Origin: Rhodoferax sp.
GTDB taxonomy: Bacteria; Pseudomonadota; Gammaproteobacteria; Burkholderiales; Burkholderiaceae_C
DNA length: 64,000 nt
Direction of reading: 5' to 3'
NCBI RefSeq assembly: GCF_012927445.1
Contig: NZ_JABBPD010000008.1
Location: forward strand, 372,001-436,000
A program made the translations under genes and the position numbers. Below, in pieces: positions 6,510 through 62,751 of the stretch. The stretch's first letter is position 1. Each line of letters begins with the position of its first letter. Under the pieces are notes generated by a model. That model was not told the DNA's origin. It worked only from the letters and a program-made list of their open reading frames with translations, and did not search any database.

Positions 6510-7988
6510 CTAGTCCAACCAAGCCCCTGTTGGTGCTTGTCGGGCCAGTGATCCGGCCACCAAGGGGGTGTCAATGTGCCAGTGCTCGGCAGCCAGGCCA
6601 TGCTGGTAGACCGCCTGGCTGGCGGCGGTGAAGGCGGCCAGCCCCTCCGCCAAGCGGGCCCCGACCATGCCGGCCAGCACATCGCCGGTGCCGGCTGTGG
6701 CTAATCGGGCATTGCCGGTGGGGTTGATGACCGGTGTTTGACCGGGCGCGGCAATGACGGTGCCCGAGCCTTTGAGCACCACAGTGCAGTCAAAGCGCTG
6801 CGCCAGTTGCTGGGCGGCTGCCAACCGGTCGTGTTGCACCTCAGCCGCGGTGCGGCCCAGCAAGCGGGCGGCTTCCAGGGGATGGGGTGTCAGTACCGTG
6901 GCCGCAAGACGCTTGCCGCGGGTCAGCAGCAGGGTTTCGAGTTGGCTGTCATTTGCTATTGAGTTGATAGCATCAGCATCAATTACAACGGCGGCTGAAG
7001 TCGCTAATATCCTGGCCAGCGGGCCGCGGATGGCGTCTCCGCCGCCACAGCCGCAGACCACCGTCATGGCCTTGAAATCCAGCCTATCGATCGGTCGGAA
7101 CATCAGTTCGGGCTGGCTTAGGTCGACCTTCAGGCTGCCGCCATCCAGCAGTCCCACAAAGACCCGGCCCGCGCCCGCATACAGGGCGGCAGAGGCCGCC
7201 AGCAGGGCCGCACCCGTCATGCCCTCGGCACCGCCCACCACCGCGACATCGCCGAAACTTCCTTTGTGCGAGGCGTGGCGCCGTGCCACCGCGTCTGGCG
7301 CGCCCGCCAACCAGGCCGTGGGCGTGGCGATTGGCCGAGCCACTGATGGGTTGTGCCCCGTATCCAGCTCGTCCAGCCAGACGGTGCCTGCGGCGTCGCG
7401 TCCATGGGCGGTAAACAAACCGGGTTTGAGAGTGAGCAGACTCAAGGTGTGCCGGGCTGTGACGCTGTGCTGCGCCATCGCGCCGGTGTCGGACTGTAGT
7501 CCGGTGGGTATATCCACGGCCAGCACGGGGGCGGGGCCCGCATTCATCAGGTTGATCCAGTGCGCCATGCGGCCTTCTGGCGCTCGATGGTCGCTACCGA
7601 TGCCCAGCAGGGCATCGATGCACAAGTCGTAGTCTTGCGGCGGCGTATCAGTGAAGCTGACCCCGGCCTCGACCGCACGGCCATAGGATGTGGCAGCGTC
7701 CTTGGGCGCTTTGCCGGGGCTGCCCAGCCAGGTCACCACGGGTGATTTTCCCCAGTGCTGCAGGTGCAGGGCGGCTTCCAGTCCATCGCCACCGTTGTTG
7801 CCGGGGCCGCACGCTATCCAGATGCGTCGGGCGTGGGGTGCGATTGCCAGGGCCAGTTGCGCCACCGCCAGGCCGGCGCGTTGCATCAAGGTATGGGGTG
7901 GCAGGGCCGCTTGAGCGGCGTGTTCGATACGGCGGGTGGCGTCAACGCTGTACAAGGCATGGCGTGCGCGGAAGTCAATTTTCAGCAT
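6510..7988 (-). CDS. nnr: Bifunctional NAD(P)H-hydrate epimerase / ADP-dependent NAD(P)H-hydrate dehydratase
   Basis: This enzyme repairs damaged (hydrated) NADH and NADPH in the cytoplasm. The track ORF starts 84 codons too early; the ATG at 7988 gives MLKIDFRARHALYSVDATR, a normal YjeF start, and lies four bases after the stop of the MBL gene. The 492-aa product has an N-terminal epimerase domain (nucleotide motif CGPGNNGGDGL at about 60-70, IDALLGIGSDHRAPEG at about 124-140) and a C-terminal ribokinase-like dehydratase domain (HKGSFGDVAVVGG at about 241, ATAGTGDVLAGMVGA at about 430). Residues about 330-346, which include the conserved VVIDADAIN motif, are encoded by DNA that matches the dispersed repeat (6951-7000), an odd coincidence discussed in the findings. 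It is the last gene of the HDOD-MBL-nnr group. Confidence 0.93.
   Translation of the reverse strand: MLKIDFRARHALYSVDATRRIEHAAQAALPPHTLMQRAGLAVAQLALAIAPHARRIWIACGPGNNGGDGLEAALHLQHWGKSPVVTWLGSPGKAPKDAATSYGRAVEAGVSFTDTPPQDYDLCIDALLGIGSDHRAPEGRMAHWINLMNAGPAPVLAVDIPTGLQSDTGAMAQHSVTARHTLSLLTLKPGLFTAHGRDAAGTVWLDELDTGHNPSVARPIATPTAWLAGAPDAVARRHASHKGSFGDVAVVGGAEGMTGAALLAASAALYAGAGRVFVGLLDGGSLKVDLSQPELMFRPIDRLDFKAMTVVCGCGGGDAIRGPLARILATSAAVVIDADAINSIANDSQLETLLLTRGKRLAATVLTPHPLEAARLLGRTAAEVQHDRLAAAQQLAQRFDCTVVLKGSGTVIAAPGQTPVINPTGNARLATAGTGDVLAGMVGARLAEGLAAFTAASQAVYQHGLAAEHWHIDTPLVAGSLARQAPTGAWLD
6951..7000 (+). repeat. Dispersed ~50-bp repeat, copy inside nnr
   Basis: The sequence atttgctattgagttgatag and onwards through acggcggctgaag matches the family pattern TTTGCTATTAAATTAATAGC-TGCTTGCGCATATTCCACGGGGGCTAGAG seen elsewhere in the window. 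In the sense of nnr it encodes about residues 330-346, read in the same frame as the other in-gene copies. Confidence 0.5.
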
Positions 7989-7992
7989 GGCG

Positions 7993-8880
7993 CTAAAACT
8001 CGTAGGTTTCACCCTCGCGGGCCAGCCGATAGACCGGACCACCCGCTTCGGGTGGGTTGTCAGCGAGCACTTGCCGGAAAACTTCATCGAGCGCGTCATC
8101 GCTGCGGGTGGGTTCGTGGTGCGTACAAAACAGCAGCTTGGCCCCGGCGTCTTTGGCGTACTTGATGCTGGAGTTGAAAGTGCCGTGCCCCCAGCCCTTT
8201 TTGGCCGGGTATTCCTGCTCGGTGTAGGAGCAGTCTGCAATCAACACATCCACCCCGCGCATGGCACGCAGGATGCTGTCGGCTTTTTCGTCGACGAAGG
8301 TTTGATACTCGGCATAGCCGTCATCTTCCGGCTCATAAATGTTCATCGGGGGCTCATGGTCACCGGTAAAGAAGACGGATTTGCCATTGGCTTCAATCCG
8401 GTAGCCGAAGTCGATGACGGGATGGTTCATTAGGTAGGGGGTGACCGTCGCGGAGCCAATCTGGATGCTTTGTTCCGGCGCGAGCGTGACATATTCAATG
8501 CGGCCCTTCATCTCGGCCTCGCGCACCGGAAAATAGCTGTACTGCAGTTGCACCGACATGATGTGCTCCACGCCTTTGCCCGATACCGGGTCAAACGCAC
8601 CATGCAGTCGCAGCAGGTTGCCAGGAATGAAGTTGGGGATGAAAAACGGCAAACCCTGAATGTGGTCCCAGTGCGAGTGGGTGATGAGCACATTGGCCGT
8701 TACCGGCAACTCCGCCAGCAAGGTCTGGGACAGAGGGAAGATGCCGGTGCCTGCATCAATAATGATCAGCTCATTGTTGTCGGTGCGTATCTCTATGCAG
8801 GTGGTGTTGCCGCCATAGCGCACGGTGTTCGGGCCGGGTGATGCAATGGAACCGCGGACACCCCAAAATCTGACTTTCAT
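7993..8880 (-). CDS. MBL-fold metallohydrolase (beta-lactamase-like, RNase Z-like group)
   Basis: The 295-aa protein begins MKVRFWGVRGSIASPGP, typical of a bacterial MBL-fold group often annotated as cAMP phosphodiesterase-like or RNase Z-like hydrolases. Metal-binding residues are visible in ITHSHWDHIQG (H68, H70, D72, H73), MNHPVIDFGYRI, TGDHEPP, and a late His pair in CTHHEPTRSDD. No signal peptide is seen, so it is probably cytoplasmic. A good Shine-Dalgarno (GAGGGG) precedes the ATG at 8880. It sits 9 bases after the HDOD gene and 4 bases before nnr, so the three are likely cotranscribed. The substrate is unknown. Confidence 0.88.
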   Translation of the reverse strand: MKVRFWGVRGSIASPGPNTVRYGGNTTCIEIRTDNNELIIIDAGTGIFPLSQTLLAELPVTANVLITHSHWDHIQGLPFFIPNFIPGNLLRLHGAFDPVSGKGVEHIMSVQLQYSYFPVREAEMKGRIEYVTLAPEQSIQIGSATVTPYLMNHPVIDFGYRIEANGKSVFFTGDHEPPMNIYEPEDDGYAEYQTFVDEKADSILRAMRGVDVLIADCSYTEQEYPAKKGWGHGTFNSSIKYAKDAGAKLLFCTHHEPTRSDDALDEVFRQVLADNPPEAGGPVYRLAREGETYEF

Positions 8881-8889
8881 GCCATCCCC

Positions 8890-9732
8890 TCAAATTTTCG
8901 AAAAAATCTTGGCTTCCTCGAACAGGGGCGCCAAGTCTCCCAACGACACGATGATTTCGTCCAGCGTGCCTCCCAGCCGTTTGGCAATGGGGGCGGGGAG
9001 TTCATCAATCCAGGGATTCCCCCCAAACCCGAAGGCCAGCTTTTTACTGATCTGGTTGGCGGCAAAGACACACGCAATCATGGGGGTGTCCTTGAGTTCC
9101 GGTCCGTACTGGCAACGAATGGTCTCCACCAAGTCAGCGGGAAAGCGCCATTTTTCCACCAGCATTGCACCCACCACGGCATGGTCGGCACCGATGACCT
9201 CGCGCAGTGCCAGATGCAGAGAGGTTTCATTCCATTGGCTGATTTCCAGCGCTTTGCGAAATTCCTGCGGCATGAACTGGGCAAACACTACTTTGCCGAA
9301 GTCGTGCAACAGGCCGGCAATAAAGCAGTCCATCGGGTCGGCGCCATCCACCCGCAGCGCCAACTGCTTGGCGATGCCCGCGGTGGCCAGCGAGTGAATC
9401 AGGTACTGTTGACCGTCAAAACCGGCCGCATTGTGTGCCGGCAAGATGCCGATGGCGGCAATGCTCAAGGCCAGGTTTTTGATGGTGTTGAAGCCCAGAT
9501 ACACCACCGCGTGGTTGATCGACGTGATCTGCTTGGGCAGGCTGTAGTAGGCGGAATTAACGACCCGCAGCACCTTGACCGTGACCACCGGGTCTTTGTC
9601 AATCACCTGCACCAGGTCCTTGGGCGAGCAATTGACGTCGCGGGTCAGCTCCAGAATTTTTTGGACACTTTTTGGAAACGCGGGCATGCCATCCACCGCA
9701 GCGGCCAGTTTTTGGGAGAGTTCAGGGCTCAT
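8890..9732 (-). CDS. HDOD domain protein
   Basis: This 280-aa protein consists almost entirely of an HDOD domain (about residues 10-210), recognisable from MPAFPKSVQKILELTRD, VIDKDPVVTVKVLRVVNSAYY, INHAVVYLGFNTIKNLALS and GLLHDFGKVVFAQF. HDOD is a non-catalytic relative of HD phosphohydrolases found in bacterial signalling and chemotaxis regulators. No receiver, GGDEF or EAL domain is attached. It is the first gene of the probable HDOD-MBL-nnr operon. The ATG at 9732 has no obvious Shine-Dalgarno. Its biological role here is unknown. Confidence 0.88.
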   Translation of the reverse strand: MSPELSQKLAAAVDGMPAFPKSVQKILELTRDVNCSPKDLVQVIDKDPVVTVKVLRVVNSAYYSLPKQITSINHAVVYLGFNTIKNLALSIAAIGILPAHNAAGFDGQQYLIHSLATAGIAKQLALRVDGADPMDCFIAGLLHDFGKVVFAQFMPQEFRKALEISQWNETSLHLALREVIGADHAVVGAMLVEKWRFPADLVETIRCQYGPELKDTPMIACVFAANQISKKLAFGFGGNPWIDELPAPIAKRLGGTLDEIIVSLGDLAPLFEEAKIFSKI

Positions 9733-9783
9733 AATTTGAATTGTCTGTCAACACTCTATTGTGTCAACTTAAAAAGCACGACA

Positions 9784-11037
9784 TTAAGTGCGCAGTCGTC
9801 CGACGCCAAACCCACTCATATCCAGGTCAGGCGTCCGGCCGGCGATCTGGTCGGCCAGGGCTCTGGCTGAGCCGCAACTCAGCGCCCAGCCACTGGCGCC
9901 ATGCCCGAGGTTCAGCCACAGACCCGCAATCCCGCTGACGCCGATGATCGGCGGTCCGTCCGGGAGCATGGGGCGCGCGCCTTTCCACTCCTGAACCCCG
10001 TTGGACAGGTTGGCGGCACCTGGAAACCAGTCGTGCAAAACCTTGTACAGCGTTTGCAGGGAGCTGGCCCTTTTTTTGTCGGGTGACCCGCCGAGTTCGG
10101 CGCATCCTGCCACGCGCACGCGGTTGCCCAAGCGAGAAATAGCCACCAGATAGTGTTCGTCCATCACGGCACTGCGGGGGCCGTTGAGCGGCTCACGAAT
10201 GGTGGCGCTGATGGAGTAGCCGTAGACGGCGGCCAATGGCATATGCAGGCCCAAGGGATCAAGCAGCCGGGCTGAGTCCAGTCCGGCGCACATCACAGCG
10301 GCGTCAAACTGGCGCGGCGCGTTTTCGCCGGCAATGCCAAGTGCCACTCCGGCGGACGGCAAAACATGGGTGACCGTGGTGTTGAATGAAAATTTCACGC
10401 CCATGCGCTGCGCTTCAGTTTTGAGCAGCAGGGCGAACTGGCGGCAGTTGGCAGCTTCGTCGTCCGGTAAATAGACCGCACCAAAAAATGCCGTGTCCGG
10501 ATTGAGTGCCGATTCGATGTTGCGGGCGGCCACGGGGTCGAGCTCTTTGAACGCCACACCGGCATCACGCAGTACCTGCAGACCCGGCTGCACGCCTTTG
10601 CTGTCCTTCTCGGTTCGCAGCAGCATCATGAAGCCGTCGCTGCGCTCGTATTCCAGCTTCAGATTCGCCGTGATGTGGTGTAACCGTTCTGAGCTGTAAA
10701 ACGCCAGACGTTGCAGGTGGGCCCGGTTGACCAAGAAAGTGTCCAGTTTACAGGCGCGAGACCACTGCCAGAGCCAGGCCAACTCGCGCCCGGAGAGTGG
10801 CAGCCCTACTTTGATGGGCGCATAGCGGCTGAATAAATGCTGAATCAGCTTGGCCGGCATTCCAGGTGCAGCCCAAGGCGTGACGTAGCCCGGTGCCACG
10901 ATGCCGGCGTTGGCAAAACTGGCTTCCTCGGCGGCGGCCCCGCGCCGCTCCAGCACGGTGACTTCGTGCCCGTCACAGGCCAGCTCGTAGGCCGTGGTGA
11001 TGCCGATGATGCCGGCACCAATAACTGCAATCTTCAT
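9784..11037 (-). CDS. dadA: D-amino acid dehydrogenase, FAD-dependent (DadA family)
   Basis: The 417-aa flavoprotein oxidises D-amino acids to 2-oxo acids and ammonia, feeding electrons to the respiratory chain at the inner membrane. The N-terminal dinucleotide-binding fold is clear: MKIAVIGAGIIGITTAYELA with the acidic VLERR end. The DAO-family core continues to the C-terminal FAD contact region GVSGIAGLWLNLGHGASGWALSCGSARALAD. Length fits DadA (about 430 aa). AAGGGATT precedes the ATG as Shine-Dalgarno. Its partner alanine racemase (dadX) is not adjacent. A copy of the dispersed repeat separates it from the upstream amidase. Confidence 0.87.
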   Translation of the reverse strand: MKIAVIGAGIIGITTAYELACDGHEVTVLERRGAAAEEASFANAGIVAPGYVTPWAAPGMPAKLIQHLFSRYAPIKVGLPLSGRELAWLWQWSRACKLDTFLVNRAHLQRLAFYSSERLHHITANLKLEYERSDGFMMLLRTEKDSKGVQPGLQVLRDAGVAFKELDPVAARNIESALNPDTAFFGAVYLPDDEAANCRQFALLLKTEAQRMGVKFSFNTTVTHVLPSAGVALGIAGENAPRQFDAAVMCAGLDSARLLDPLGLHMPLAAVYGYSISATIREPLNGPRSAVMDEHYLVAISRLGNRVRVAGCAELGGSPDKKRASSLQTLYKVLHDWFPGAANLSNGVQEWKGARPMLPDGPPIIGVSGIAGLWLNLGHGASGWALSCGSARALADQIAGRTPDLDMSGFGVGRLRT

Positions 11038-58157: not shown

Positions 58158-58815
58158 CTGGTCATCCCTGGGTACCGATCTGGTCACCGCCTTTGGCGAA
58201 ACCTTCCTGATGGTCGGCATCGCCAGCGTGCTGGCCATTGTCATTGGCCTGCCGCTGGGTTTCTTGCTGCATGTCACCAGCCGCAAGCTGTTCTGGGCCA
58301 ACCGCTTTGCCAATGTTGCCGGTAACTTTCTGGTCAATCTGGTGCGCTCGGTGCCGTTCGTCATCCTGCTGGTGTTGCTGCTGCCGCTGACCCAGTGGGT
58401 GCTCGGTACCACCATCGGCCCGACGGCGGCGTCGGTGCCGCTGTCGCTGGCGGCCATCGTCTTCTACGCCCGCATGGTTGAAGCCTCGTTGTGCGAGGTT
58501 GACCCCGGCATCATCGAAGCGTCGCAGGCCTTCGGCGCCAGCCCGCTGCGCATCATCTGCACCGTGCTGTTTCCCGAAGCCTTGCCCGGTTTTCTGCGCG
58601 GTTTCACCGTGACGCTGATCAGCCTGATTGGCTTCTCGGCCATGGCCGGCATTGTGGGCGGCGGTGGCGTCGGCGATCTGGCCATCCGCTTTGGCTACTA
58701 CCGCTACCAGACCGACGTGATGGTGGTAACGGTGGTCGCCCTGGTGGTGCTGGTGCAGATTGTGCAAATGGGGGGCGACTGGCTGGCCCGCCATGCGGAC
58801 AAAAAAGACGTGTGA
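58147..58815 (+). CDS. metI: Methionine ABC transporter permease
   Basis: The 222-aa inner-membrane permease has about five TM helices and the EAA coupling segment EASQAFGASPLRIICTVLFPEALPGF. Its last 52 codons (from 58660) are duplicated at 62310-62465 with eight differences, all synonymous. The 3' end may therefore have been replaced by incoming DNA or copied by it. The CDS itself is intact (ends ARHADKKDV). It is the last gene of metQNI. Confidence 0.95.
   Translation: MLIDWSSLGTDLVTAFGETFLMVGIASVLAIVIGLPLGFLLHVTSRKLFWANRFANVAGNFLVNLVRSVPFVILLVLLLPLTQWVLGTTIGPTAASVPLSLAAIVFYARMVEASLCEVDPGIIEASQAFGASPLRIICTVLFPEALPGFLRGFTVTLISLIGFSAMAGIVGGGGVGDLAIRFGYYRYQTDVMVVTVVALVVLVQIVQMGGDWLARHADKKDV
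58660..58815 (+). repeat. Direct repeat, left copy: 3' end of metI
   Basis: This 156-base segment pairs with 62310-62465. I count eight mismatches (58674, 58680, 58728, 58737, 58741, 58773, 58800, 58812), all silent in the metI frame. The two copies bracket the two-ATPase cassette. Confidence 0.95.
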
Positions 58816-59076
58816 TTCAGCAGAACGGTGCGTCTGCGGCGCGCCGCAGCGCAAGGCCTGCTGTGGGTTGAGTTTTGCTACTTAATTAATAGCTTCTTAC
58901 GCAATGTGGACGAGGTCTGGAGTCTGTTTTTATATAAAAATAGGCTAACACGGCGGTCACTGAATCAATAGCAAGCCTGGATCGCTTCTGCGCTGCGCAA
59001 GCCATCACCGTCAATTCCACGGTGGCCGAAGGCAATGCGGCGTTGTTGTGGAGTGAGTTAATGATGTGGTTGATTT
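58816..59076. other. Intergenic region after metI
   Basis: It contains a perfect palindrome CTGCGGCGCGCCGCAG (58834-58849) and a dispersed repeat copy (58873-58924). No gene is seen; the convergent ATPase gene ends at 59077. A short open stretch (RFCAAQAITVNSTVAEGNAA, about 58980-59040) is not recognised. Confidence 0.5.
58873..58924 (+). repeat. Dispersed ~50-bp repeat downstream of metI
   Basis: ttttgctacttaattaatagcttcttacgcaatgtggacgaggtctggagtc: direct-orientation family member, 58 bases after the metI stop. The displaced metI end has a corresponding copy at nearly the same distance. Confidence 0.7.
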
Positions 59077-61029
59077 TCATGGAGGTGAATCAACTTCGGC
59101 TTTTCGAAAGAGGAATTTTTCAATCAGTCTGCGTTCTTCGGATGGAAGAGCTAACAAAGCTTTGCTATTTGGGTCTTTATTAAGGAGCTCATAGGCATCG
59201 AACATTCGAGAGAAGGCACCGAGAGTTTTTTTAGTTTGACGGCTATTATTTCGTCCAATATATGCCTTAAAAAAGTATTCCATCCACTCGAGTTTTCGTG
59301 CCTGACTATCATCCTCTTCGGGGAACGCGAGCAGTAGGCCTGCAAATACATGCGCCCGATATGCTGCCAAAGCTTCAACCACCAGCGGAAGTAATCTTTT
59401 TCCTTCTTTGGGATTAATCGAATAGAGCTTGCTACCACAAGCTATTAACGCGGCAGCGAAAGCAACTGCATGACGTTTGTTAAATTTGATCTTGGAGATT
59501 GCGTGACCAAAGGATGTGGTGAGCTTATGAGCTAAGTTTTCGTCTGTTAGTAGCTCAGATTCGTTGGCAGACTGCAAAACTCGAATTCCCAACTCAACCC
59601 GCGCTAATGTGGCATCGCCACCAATTGCATCCAACTCATCCATTAGGCCAATGATCTCTTCAATGCTGCCGTGAGCGATAGCTGCCAGCAAATCCTTTTC
59701 GGTAGCCTGGACTTTGGGGTCTGTATTGCTTTCTCGTACCAGCGATAGCGCTTTCTCGATATAGCGCACATCAATACGGCGAAATGGTTCGGAATGGCTC
59801 AGCCAAGCCTGTAATTCATCCTCGGTGTACCAAATGCGCAAAATCTCCACGAACAAGTTGACCGGCCCGCCGCGTTGCTTCTTCACCTCCATGCACAGGC
59901 GCATGAGGGGCTCGCAGAGTTCGTAATAGCTTTCCCGTCCCTGCTCGATGGAGCGCACGTAGCGTTTGTCTTTGAGCTGCTTGAGTTGGCTGGAGCAAGT
60001 CTGGTGTGTGATGAAGCACGACTTGGCAATCAGTTTAACCGGCGCCGCGCCCCGGTAGTTCACCAGGTACTCCACGATCTTGCGTTGCTGGCCCGACAGC
60101 TCTTTCATGCGTGCCTGGTAGTAGGGCGTCAACTCATCGAGCGTGTGCATGAAAGCGGGCACCAGTTCGTCCAGCGCTTCCTTGCTTAAAAATTGGGCAA
60201 AGATGATGTAGATACGCGGGTTGCCTTCGGCGAGGTGATGGACGGCGCGAATGCGGGCCCGGCCCTCGGGCGTTTCAATGAAGGCGGCCAGACTTTCATC
60301 ACCCCGCTCCACGGCAATTTTGCCCAACAGGTTGACCACATCCTCAAACCCCAGTTCCTTAAGCGGCTCAATGTCAAAGAACCCGTAGAAGGCGGATTTG
60401 TGCAAGCTCACGCCCGCAAACAGGGACGGCGTGGTGCAGACCAGCACCATGTTGTTGTGGTTCTGAATGAAGGCGCGCCAGGCTTTCTGGCCCTGGTCAC
60501 CGAGTTGGTCAAACAGATCATCCAGGTTTTCCAGCAACACAAGGAGGCGTTTTGTGCCCAATACGTCTAGCAAAATGGACTCCGCCAGCTTTTCCGCTTC
60601 TTTGAGGCTTAACTCGTACAGGGGCGTGGTGCGCGCTTCAATTTCCAACTCGGGGTAGCTGGCGTCCAGTGTGCGCAGGATGCGCAGCACCAGTTCAAAG
60701 AAACTCGTCACACCCCATTCTTCTTCGCGCATCCAGGCAATCAGGGCTTTGTCCTGGGCCTCTGGGGTTTGTGTCAAGCGGTGGTGGAGCAAGGAGATCA
60801 GGTGGGTTTTGCCGATACCCCGGGGGCCGACAAACAGGGTGTGGTGGCTGCTGCCTGTGCGCAGACTGTCCATCACGTTGTCCAGGCAGCGTGCAAGGAC
60901 GGGTTCGCGTTGCACAAGCATGGCTTCCAGGGTTTCCGGCGCCATCAAGCTGGGGGTGAAATGCGACAAGTAGAGGGCCTTGCCCGCCAGCGTTGACTCG
61001 GTTGCGTTCGTGCGTGACTCGGTGCTCAT
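59077..61029 (-). CDS. P-loop ATPase with winged helix and divergent C-terminal module (unknown function)
   Basis: The track start is 48 codons too early; the ATG at 61029 overlaps the upstream ATPase stop as ATGA, giving 650 aa. Walker A is FVGPRGIGKTHLIS (G68-T75), Walker B LLVLLENLDDLF (about 162-173), a sensor-2-like AEGNPRIYIIFAQF (about 267-280), then a winged helix (about 312-383: GQQRKIVEYLVNYRGAAPVK, SQLKQLKDKRYVRS). This resembles ORC/Cdc6-like or archaeal-type/STAND ATPases. The C-terminal ~250 residues (from about 404) look helical and are not recognised; their DNA is clearly AT-richer than the N-terminal part. It forms a two-gene operon with the next ATPase, flanked by the duplicated metI end. 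Function unknown; defence or stress response is possible. Confidence 0.8.
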   Translation of the reverse strand: MSTESRTNATESTLAGKALYLSHFTPSLMAPETLEAMLVQREPVLARCLDNVMDSLRTGSSHHTLFVGPRGIGKTHLISLLHHRLTQTPEAQDKALIAWMREEEWGVTSFFELVLRILRTLDASYPELEIEARTTPLYELSLKEAEKLAESILLDVLGTKRLLVLLENLDDLFDQLGDQGQKAWRAFIQNHNNMVLVCTTPSLFAGVSLHKSAFYGFFDIEPLKELGFEDVVNLLGKIAVERGDESLAAFIETPEGRARIRAVHHLAEGNPRIYIIFAQFLSKEALDELVPAFMHTLDELTPYYQARMKELSGQQRKIVEYLVNYRGAAPVKLIAKSCFITHQTCSSQLKQLKDKRYVRSIEQGRESYYELCEPLMRLCMEVKKQRGGPVNLFVEILRIWYTEDELQAWLSHSEPFRRIDVRYIEKALSLVRESNTDPKVQATEKDLLAAIAHGSIEEIIGLMDELDAIGGDATLARVELGIRVLQSANESELLTDENLAHKLTTSFGHAISKIKFNKRHAVAFAAALIACGSKLYSINPKEGKRLLPLVVEALAAYRAHVFAGLLLAFPEEDDSQARKLEWMEYFFKAYIGRNNSRQTKKTLGAFSRMFDAYELLNKDPNSKALLALPSEERRLIEKFLFRKAEVDSPP

Positions 61030-62225
61030 ACGGCTGCTCCCGTCTGACCCATCGCCAGGCTGCGATGCCACACCCACCAACGCTTGACGACGGTGAACTT
61101 GAAGCCAATTTCGCCATTGGCATGGCGCAGAAAATAATGGTCGCGCTCCAGCAGACGCGACAGTTCTATCCACTGTTGCTGCTCAATCAGGGGGTAGGCC
61201 GCCTTGGCCCGCCTGATGGCGTCGGCGATAGACAGGGTGCCGGTGCATGAGGCCACCGCATCCAGCAGGGCCAGACACTCGGCACGCTGATTGCCGTAGT
61301 AATCCGAGGTGCGATCTTCATAATGCTGCACATCCCAGGGGTTGTCGCTGGAATGAATGCCGTGTTCTATCACCGCGCTCACCGTTTGCATGTCAATGGG
61401 CTGTTGGAGTGACGCCGGGTTTTTAAGCAGCGCTGAGACGACGTGATGAATGTAAAACGGGATGCAGTCCAGCGATTTGGCGGTTTCTTCAAAAATGTCT
61501 TGCGTTGCAGCTATCAAGTTGTTGTCGATGAAAAGGCGCTCTAACAGCCCCGCCGCATCGGGGAGTGCCAGCGGTTCCACTTCGATCGACAGCATGTCGT
61601 TCACGGGCGTGTTGTTGTAGCCCTGCTCCTTGAGTCTGCGCACGATATGGTGCAAGCCCAATGAACCCGTGAACACCATGCGCAGCTTGTTGGCATGCTG
61701 CTGGCGCAGGGCGCGCAAGGTGTCGAGCAATTCCATGGCTTCTTGCGGGTTGGTCTTGGCGATGATTTCCAACATCCAGGGCAGTTCGTCCCACAAAAAA
61801 ACAACCCGTTCGATGGCGTTGTTTTCGTCAAGATGCGCAATGGCATCGCCCAGCATTTGCTTCCATTGCTTGGTTGCAAAATTCGGCAATTTGAGGGGAC
61901 CAATTTGTGTGCCACCTAACTGCTCCACCGTACTCTGCAACCAGTTCCTGAAATTGGTTTTGGCTTCGAGATGCGGGTAAAGATCGGCCATGACGTAATG
62001 CACAAACTCCGAAGCACTGCGAATGCCACCAATGTCCCGTTTGATAACAGCCCAGTTGTCTGGCGCAGTGGCTTTGAATTTTTCCAGGACGTGGGTTTTG
62101 CCGGTTCGTCGCTCTGCCACGATCAAAATACTTTGTTGATCAAGCGCTGACTGCAAGTAAGCAACGACTGTGTCGCGCCCCACGATGTCATCGAGCTGAA
62201 GAATGCCGCCTGGATTGGGTTTCAT
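61026..62225 (-). CDS. P-loop ATPase, archaeal-ATPase/STAND-like (unknown function)
   Basis: The 399-aa protein is upstream in the two-gene operon. A short N-terminus (ILQLDDIVGRDTVVAYLQSA) leads to an unusual Walker A, IVAERRTGKTHVLEKF (A37-T44, with Ala replacing the first Gly), and Walker B ERVVFLWDELPWML (about 139-152). A sensor-1-like strand reads RMVFTGSLGLHHIVRRLKE, as in archaeal-type ATPases (MNS group), and the C-terminal part (about 300-399) looks like a winged helix with a Trp-rich end (KRWWVWHRS). No nuclease or membrane domain is seen. It shares no close similarity with its partner beyond the P-loop core. The partner ATPase is coupled through ATGA. What the pair does is unknown. 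Confidence 0.8.
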   Translation of the reverse strand: MKPNPGGILQLDDIVGRDTVVAYLQSALDQQSILIVAERRTGKTHVLEKFKATAPDNWAVIKRDIGGIRSASEFVHYVMADLYPHLEAKTNFRNWLQSTVEQLGGTQIGPLKLPNFATKQWKQMLGDAIAHLDENNAIERVVFLWDELPWMLEIIAKTNPQEAMELLDTLRALRQQHANKLRMVFTGSLGLHHIVRRLKEQGYNNTPVNDMLSIEVEPLALPDAAGLLERLFIDNNLIAATQDIFEETAKSLDCIPFYIHHVVSALLKNPASLQQPIDMQTVSAVIEHGIHSSDNPWDVQHYEDRTSDYYGNQRAECLALLDAVASCTGTLSIADAIRRAKAAYPLIEQQQWIELSRLLERDHYFLRHANGEIGFKFTVVKRWWVWHRSLAMGQTGAAV

Positions 62226-62309
62226 AATAAAAGACTTCTATTTACGATGAAATTATTGTACGTTTGTTTCAACGTGCGTTGGTAGCGATGTCTTCTGTTT
62301 TTCCGTATT

Positions 62310-62465
62310 GGCGGTGGCGTCGGTGATCTCGCCATCCGCTTTGGCTACTACCGCTACCAGACCGACGTGATGGTGGTCACGGTGGTGGCCTTGGTGGTGC
62401 TGGTGCAGATTGTGCAAATGGGCGGCGACTGGCTGGCCCGCCATGCGGATAAAAAAGACGTCTGA
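62310..62465 (+). pseudogene. Displaced 3' end of metI (right direct repeat copy)
   Basis: The frame continues from VGDLAIRFGYYRYQTDVMVV to ARHADKKDV and a stop, with no start of its own. All eight differences from intact metI are silent, so this was part of a functional gene until recently. It is followed by a terminator and repeat, as expected of the original operon end. Confidence 0.9.
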
Positions 62466-62494
62466 TCGAGGCGCGCTTCAACTTGCCCGGTGTG

Positions 62495-62530: not shown

Positions 62531-62580
62531 TGCTATCTATGTCATAGCTGCTTGCGCAGATAAGACGGGGGCTGGCGGCT
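62528..62580 (+). repeat. Dispersed ~50-bp repeat after the displaced metI end
   Basis: atttgctatctatgtcatagctgcttgcgcagataagacgggggctggcggct: clear direct-orientation family member. Confidence 0.75.
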
Positions 62581-62751
62581 GATTTGTCATTAATTTCTGT
62601 TCTGACGCCAGTTGCCGGCACCCGCCCGCATCCCGACGGGCAGGATGGACGCGCGGGGAGCGCGACCGCCTGCATCGCGCCCGTGACATTAAGGCGGTGT
62701 AATAGAGGCTATGCAGATCAAACCAACCAATCAACACAATGGGTATTTCTC

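Follow-up and report, generated by a model that had tools for sequence, protein, structure and literature searches.

A Coupled Pair of Related STAND-Class ATPases in Rhodoferax sp., a Candidate Two-Component Immune Receptor With an Exchanged Sensor-Like Domain

Gene Pair and Locus

We analyzed a 64,000-nucleotide (nt) stretch of DNA from Rhodoferax sp. (positions 372,001 to 436,000 of contig NZ_JABBPD010000008.1; hereafter the window), in which two adjacent genes on the minus strand, here named A and B, encode P-loop ATPases (Table 1). Both open reading frames (ORFs) are intact, and the pair is present as a single copy in its own 3.94-Mb genome. The stop codon of A overlaps the start codon of B by 4 nt (spacing -4), and this overlap is also present in five close relatives; the pair of P-loop ATPases coupled through ATGA that was proposed in a first-pass annotation, made by inspection of the window alone, is therefore upheld. 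The start of B is taken as the ATG at position 61029, which is conserved in relatives and gives a protein of 650 amino acids (aa); the 698-aa version of B stems from a mechanical ORF list and begins at a GTG upstream of this ATG.

Table 1. Positions of the gene pair, its motifs and domains, and flanking features in the window.
Feature	Position	Strand	Evidence
Gene A, 399 aa, ATG start	61026-62225	minus	ORF; AAA_22; family profile and Foldseek matches to 2qen/2fna
Gene B, 650 aa, STAND-like: NTPase, winged helix, variable helical C-terminus	59077-61029	minus	ORF; AAA_16; helix-turn-helix (HTH) matches
ATGA, stop of A overlapping start of B by 4 nt	61026-61029	minus	Sequence; -4 spacing kept in relatives
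A Walker A, AERRTGKT, residues 37-44	62094-62117	minus	R39, R40, G42, K43 invariant in 15 homologs
A Walker B region, WDELP, residues 145-149	61779-61793	minus	D146, E147 invariant in 15 homologs
A sensor-1-like TGS, residues 186-188	61662-61670	minus	G187, S188 invariant in 15 homologs
B Walker A, GPRGIGKT, residues 68-75	60805-60828	minus	R70, G71, G73, K74 invariant in 14 homologs
B Walker-B-like ENLD, residues 167-170	60520-60531	minus	Alignments
B winged helix and the DELTPYY motif before it, residues 301-385	59875-60129	minus	HTH matches; 90-94% identical in close relatives
B hypervariable helical domain, putative sensor, residues 403-620	59170-59823	minus	Identity, dN, synonymous saturation; TPR arrays instead in distant homologs
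B C-terminal tail, residues 621-650, motif LLALPSEERRLIEKFL	59080-59169	minus	31-50% identity in close relatives; similar tail in most B
Intact metI 3' end, left copy of 157-bp direct repeat	58660-58816	plus	Repeat comparison; reading frame
Second metI 3' end copy, right of cassette	62310-62466	plus	95% identical, all differences synonymous
putA 3' end relic, 73 bp	58976-59048	plus	79-82% identical to putA 3' ends in L002, L074, L075, L078
Operator-like dyad CACGTT-N6-AACGTA upstream of A	62259-62276	minus	Upstream block conserved in several relatives

A and B: Related ATPases of the STAND Class

A matches the Pfam family AAA_22 (E 3e-7), and a profile of the A family matches two archaeal Walker ATPases of the signal transduction ATPases with numerous domains (STAND) class, with structures 2qen and 2fna (~2e-10). 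The same structures are the top Foldseek matches of a structure model of A (E 3e-9 for 2fna; mean predicted local distance difference test score, pLDDT, of 70), followed with weaker scores by ORC, RuvB, CED-4, and nucleotide-binding leucine-rich repeat receptors (NLRs). The archaeal proteins, SSO1545 (2fna) and PABY2304 (2qen) of the Pfam ATPase_2 type, share with A the fold type and the P-loop form xxRRxGK[ST]; however, identity to A in the structural alignment is only ~12-14%, and we know of no co-encoded B partner for either. The Walker A of A had been called unusual, and although its sequence was given correctly, the form xxRRxGK[ST] typifies the whole A family, as seen in a comparison of 15 diverse homologs. 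The Walker-B-like stretch of A reads LWDELP, and the protein closes with a winged-helix-like region that ends in ...KRWWVWHR.

B matches the Pfam family AAA_16 (E 1.2e-7), and weak AAA_16, NACHT, and nSTAND matches are found among its homologs. Its Walker-B-like stretch reads LLENLD, and the NTPase is followed by an ArsR/MarR-like winged helix (~residues 310-375, matched by several HTH models), which is likewise found in B homologs. In PADLOC, the only hits of B are to the P-loop or to winged helices that belong to unrelated proteins.

The profiles of A and B align with one another over 301 columns, from the P-loop to the winged helix (hhalign probability 96%), and both proteins are therefore read as STAND-class modules. 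Thus, A and B are related ATPases of the STAND/NLR class, each possessing the P-loop core of that broad class; the two ATPases separated in the first-pass annotation are indeed two, but they are not unrelated.

Exchange of the C-Terminal Domain of B

B proteins range in length from 298 aa (Segatella; NTPase and winged helix only) to 1370 aa. In many distant homologs the added length consists of tetratricopeptide repeats (TPRs), and TPR arrays are present in most of the long homologs. The last 250 residues of the window B are predicted to be entirely helical and match no family or repeat model; the long helical C-terminus described for this protein at first pass holds as a prediction, and comparison with relatives refines it to a hypervariable, apparently exchanged, sensor-like domain.

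This comparison used six close relatives (the window, L002, L003, L004, L005, and L012). Across these, A is ~80% identical over its full length and the B core (NTPase and winged helix) is 80-89% identical, and identity in B then drops to 20-45% past the motif IWYT (residue ~402). For residues 403-620 it is 18-35%, compared with 84-94% in the core. Nonsynonymous divergence (dN) is 0.06-0.14 in the B core versus 0.46-1.2 in the C-terminus, where synonymous sites are mostly saturated. GC content is lower in the B C-terminus in all six relatives (0.46 vs. 0.58 in the window). The pattern recurs independently within one species: when two plasmids of Moraxella osloensis, pNP7-2 and pSKB0120-2, are compared, A has a synonymous divergence (dS) of 0.08 and the B core one of 0.25, and the synonymous sites of the B C-terminus are saturated (proportion of synonymous differences, pS, 0.83).

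A rise in synonymous divergence this abrupt points to recombination that replaced the segment with a diverged homolog, rather than to fast amino-acid change alone. Positive selection acting in place was rejected as the only cause of the C-terminal variability, because synonymous sites are saturated there too. These alignments indicate that the C-terminus of B is exchanged as a module between alleles, as expected of a sensor; in antiviral STANDs, the C-terminal sensors are highly variable (PMC10907252). The tail of B (the last ~30 residues) aligns somewhat better among the close relatives than does the hypervariable domain (Table 1), and the motif LxxLxPExRxxAxxhL is readable, as judged by eye, at the end of most B proteins.

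Distribution and Pairing

A relatives are sporadic: within the family they occur in 5 of 251 genomes, in a phylum-wide sample in 6 of 399, and in a sample of another class of this phylum in 3 of 240 (counts that include the query genome where it was sampled); for the class, full-length relatives were seen in 6 of 274 genomes. The frequency of the A-B pair is ~1-2% of genomes. The cassette is thus accessory, as had been supposed; nor is the pair universal in the genus, since it is absent from genome G215. Weak matches to the A profile (E ~1e-11 to 1e-16, mostly to the N-terminal part with the P-loop) were taken as generic ATPases and were not counted. Close relatives of A belong to Rhodoferax, Polaromonas, and other Burkholderiales; distant relatives are found elsewhere in Pseudomonadota, on plasmids of M. 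osloensis and Methylomonas, and on one Bacteroidota plasmid.

At ~31 loci besides the window (some with B genes that are truncated or run off contig ends), every A with an examinable neighbor is followed by B, on the same strand and in the order A-B. An IS5 element interrupts one of the A genes of Moraxella. The distance from the stop codon of A to the start codon of B ranges from -11 to +17 nt, and is mostly -4 or -8. Pairwise distances among A proteins correlate with those among B proteins (Mantel r 0.96 for 24 pairs and 0.89 without close relatives, with none of 5000 permutations as high), although shared species history alone can also yield such a correlation.

In a few cases, a B-like gene stands by itself, as in Mycobacterium (core only) and Sphingobium. 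On plasmid pP4-4a of Mycobacterium avium (L081:4932-7627), a B-core-like protein without the C-terminus is encoded in overlap with a serine/threonine protein kinase gene, which could be a further STAND-type pairing. One contig that carries an A-B pair also has another, different pair of adjacent ATPase-like genes, one with a TPR-like match (L030:8184-10902).

Defense Genes Near A and B

Several relatives of the pair are situated among defense genes. In M. osloensis plasmid pNP7-2, the pair comes after an annotated qatD, a 7-cyano-7-deazaguanine synthase gene, and a protein kinase gene (Qat). In M. osloensis plasmid pSKB0120-2 (L142), the end of B overlaps by 17 nt a gene for a protein of 1248 aa (7122-10868), the first 164 residues of which match the N-terminus of Avs4 (E 1.7e-42) and are fused to an ATPase; another long ATPase gene comes next. 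A homolog of Ppl (E 4e-39) starts ~12 nt past B at L033, and an AbiL-like ATPase and a Fic protein are encoded near the pair at L115. In the conjugative plasmid NZ_CP128177.1 of Sphingobium baderi (L083, L084), the lone, TPR-bearing B is beside Pycsar and AbiE, with TIR and E1/E2-JAB genes on the far side of the record start, forming a dense defense region.

In a PADLOC scan of 111 neighbor proteins versus 111 control proteins, the strong hits among neighbors were mostly housekeeping look-alikes: mad3/mad8 models matched UvrA, mad2 a PrmC-like protein, and DrmD/DpdE/BrxH a RapA-type helicase. The control set had look-alikes of its own, with hits to Cas12f models (probably TnpB) and to DndA/SspA models (probably cysteine desulfurase), and we therefore claim no enrichment. 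The PADLOC models PDLC04135 (mad3) and PDLC04140 (mad8) score housekeeping UvrA strongly (E 1e-92 and 1e-38, respectively), so that a hit to either model does not by itself count as evidence for a MADS system. Recurrence near defense genes, which had been put forward as a check on the pair, is thus seen for some relatives that lie in defense islands, but not as an enrichment over the control; we infer a defense role from these individual loci, not from statistics.

Proposed Function and Alternatives

We consider the chances about even that A and B form a two-component STAND immune receptor pair, similar to bacterial NLRs, that acts by itself, is horizontally transferred, and probably functions against phages. 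B would be the sensor, with its C-terminal helical domain binding a ligand that is probably a protein from an invader or phage. Once bound, the ligand would relieve autoinhibition, shift the NTPase/winged-helix core of B from the ADP to the ATP form, and drive assembly. This would be in keeping with STANDs that have TPR sensors, which at rest are held in an autoinhibited ADP form and assemble upon inducer binding (PMC6468293). A would be a sensorless STAND module and an obligate partner in the assembly, which relays or executes the response. Given that no effector is recognizable in A or B, the output would come either from the A/B complex, through its own NTPase activity, or from another effector that is recruited. 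The more specific proposal of a paired NLR, in which sensor B and sensorless A co-assemble as an immune switch without a catalytic effector, so that ATPase assembly is itself the output, is somewhat unlikely.

Several observations weigh against an immune receptor pair. No effector domain (nuclease, protease, or membrane) was detected in A or B using Pfam, NCBIfam, PADLOC, and PHROGs, in agreement with the first-pass annotation, which had seen none. The structure model of B is too poor for confirmation of the fold. A minimal B that lacks the C-terminus exists in Segatella, so the sensor is not universal. Once look-alikes are removed, neighbors show no clear defense enrichment relative to the control, and the close relatives of the window pair lie among ordinary genes. 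No relatives were found among viral contigs or annotated phages, a result on which a phage or prophage origin was also rejected.

B, together with A, could instead be a transcription regulator of the MalT/IniR type; its winged helix would then bind DNA and its C-terminus would respond to a small molecule or an envelope signal, with A aiding the switch. MalT is itself a STAND with a TPR sensor (PMC6468293), the winged helix of B resembles those of ArsR/MarR regulators, and an operator-like dyad is located upstream of A. The dyad is abutted by TACAAT (62255-62260) and is partly conserved in several relatives, with the consensus TACGTT-N6-AACGTA; it might reflect autoregulation by one of the winged helices. 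A promoter and terminator scan gave nothing above chance, and there was no match in Rfam. However, a winged helix after the NTPase is a normal component of the STAND core, and to our knowledge MalT-type systems include no partner ATPase. Moreover, neighboring genes are not conserved and differ from locus to locus, and hence there is no obvious target operon; a metabolic regulator would also not be expected to exchange its sensor at saturating divergence while its core stays almost unchanged. We regard this function as unlikely.

It is also improbable that A and B are a sensing module that needs a third, exchangeable effector gene. The genes that overlap or closely follow B at L142 (Avs4-type N-terminus) and L033 (Ppl homolog) would be candidates for such an effector, but most loci have no third gene, and this includes the close relatives of the window pair. 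In addition, Avs4 and Ppl systems function alone, and therefore these genes may be mere defense-island neighbors of A-B.

It is very unlikely that A and B are a pair of ATPases of the DNA-loading or transposition type (ORC/Cdc6, TniB/IstB, or clamp-loader-like) that serves the replication or mobility of an element. The cassette clearly moves between genomes and has weak similarities to ORC, RuvB, and TniB, but it has no accompanying transposase, integrase, terminal repeats, or origin and stands alone at differing sites in relatives. Such a role is also at odds with the TPR arrays and with the exchange of the C-terminus. The TniB match of A (E 0.05) covers the P-loop only and does not amount to membership of TniB/IstB/MuB, and the ORC/Cdc6 matches fall far short of full-length orthology (PF24389 covers just 28 residues, at E 0.0026; TIGR02928 scores 11 bits, its cut-off being 181).

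Transfer of the Cassette

The cassette was initially regarded as a discrete unit between metI and dinG. This does not hold: repeated metI 3' ends flank the cassette, a putA relic lies between metI and B, and metI is beside dinG at none of the 19 same-genus dinG loci examined. The two metI copies differ only at synonymous positions, which indicates that the second copy is an allele and not a drifted duplicate. In L002, L012, and apparently L004, the cassette is convergent to a putA gene (intact in L002 and L012). The putA of the window genome is located elsewhere, and its protein is only 49-56% identical to that of L012. Based on the putA relic, the convergent putA of relatives, and the separate, divergent resident putA, the cassette probably derives from a putA-adjacent site of a relative; the putA scrap and the second metI end are scars of horizontal transfer.

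Integrase-type insertion at the metI 3' end, which was considered because of the 157-bp duplication, was rejected: no integrase, transposase, or recombinase accompanies the window cassette, and the putA scrap is indicative of ordinary recombination after transfer. The intergenic sequence at 62544-62594 is a dispersed repeat, 82-92% identical to other places in the same genome, and sequence of similar appearance lies across the cassette from it, near 58873-58930.

Relationship to Known Systems and Significance

Searches of PADLOC (2023 release), of Pfam and NCBIfam profiles, and of the open-access literature returned no two-gene system that matches A-B, although a description elsewhere is possible. 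No profile places both A and B in a characterized family, consistent with the earlier failure to recognize the pair as a named system.

The immune receptor pair proposed here resembles several known systems in part. Like Avs and bNACHT proteins, A-B is sporadic and horizontally transferred, and one copy directly precedes an Avs4-like gene; unlike them, B has no N-terminal effector, and a second, related ATPase is always co-encoded. Neither A nor B matches any Avs1-Avs5 profile or carries a fused effector domain, and the one match among homologs is a 10-bit P-loop match to Avs4. CARD-NLR systems (e.g., LypABC) also combine an NLR-like ATPase that has TPR-like repeats with a co-encoded partner bearing its own divergent ATPase domain (PMC13236601); however, A and B encode no CARD, protease, or nuclease, and so do not belong with systems of the LypABC type. 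The STAND core and TPR sensor are shared with MalT/PH0952 STANDs and IniR (PMC6468293), but these are single-protein switches or regulators that have neither a co-encoded second ATPase nor a swapped sensor. A has a weak and partial match to the PADLOC candidate PDC-S27 (E 1.8e-4, 18.5 bits, residues 13-260), which is weaker still in A homologs; PDC-S27 is a single, longer gene (474 positions) without a B partner, and no strong full-length match to it was obtained.

Most known bacterial NLR-like receptors are either single STANDs to which an effector is fused or STANDs that work together with a protease or nuclease. In plants, sensor/helper NLR pairs exist, and by analogy only these can be likened to A-B as two related NTPase switches with a variable sensor on one of them; no orthology is claimed. 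The parts of A-B are of a known kind (STAND/NLR-like), and what is new is that the pairing is obligate, an effector is missing, and the sensor is swapped. If the proposed function is correct, an obligate pair of related STANDs, with one sensor and no visible effector, would represent a different architecture, with a logic like that of plant sensor/helper NLRs. Natural alleles that have the same A and nearly the same B core but differing C-termini, even within one species, make sensor specificity directly testable by domain swaps.

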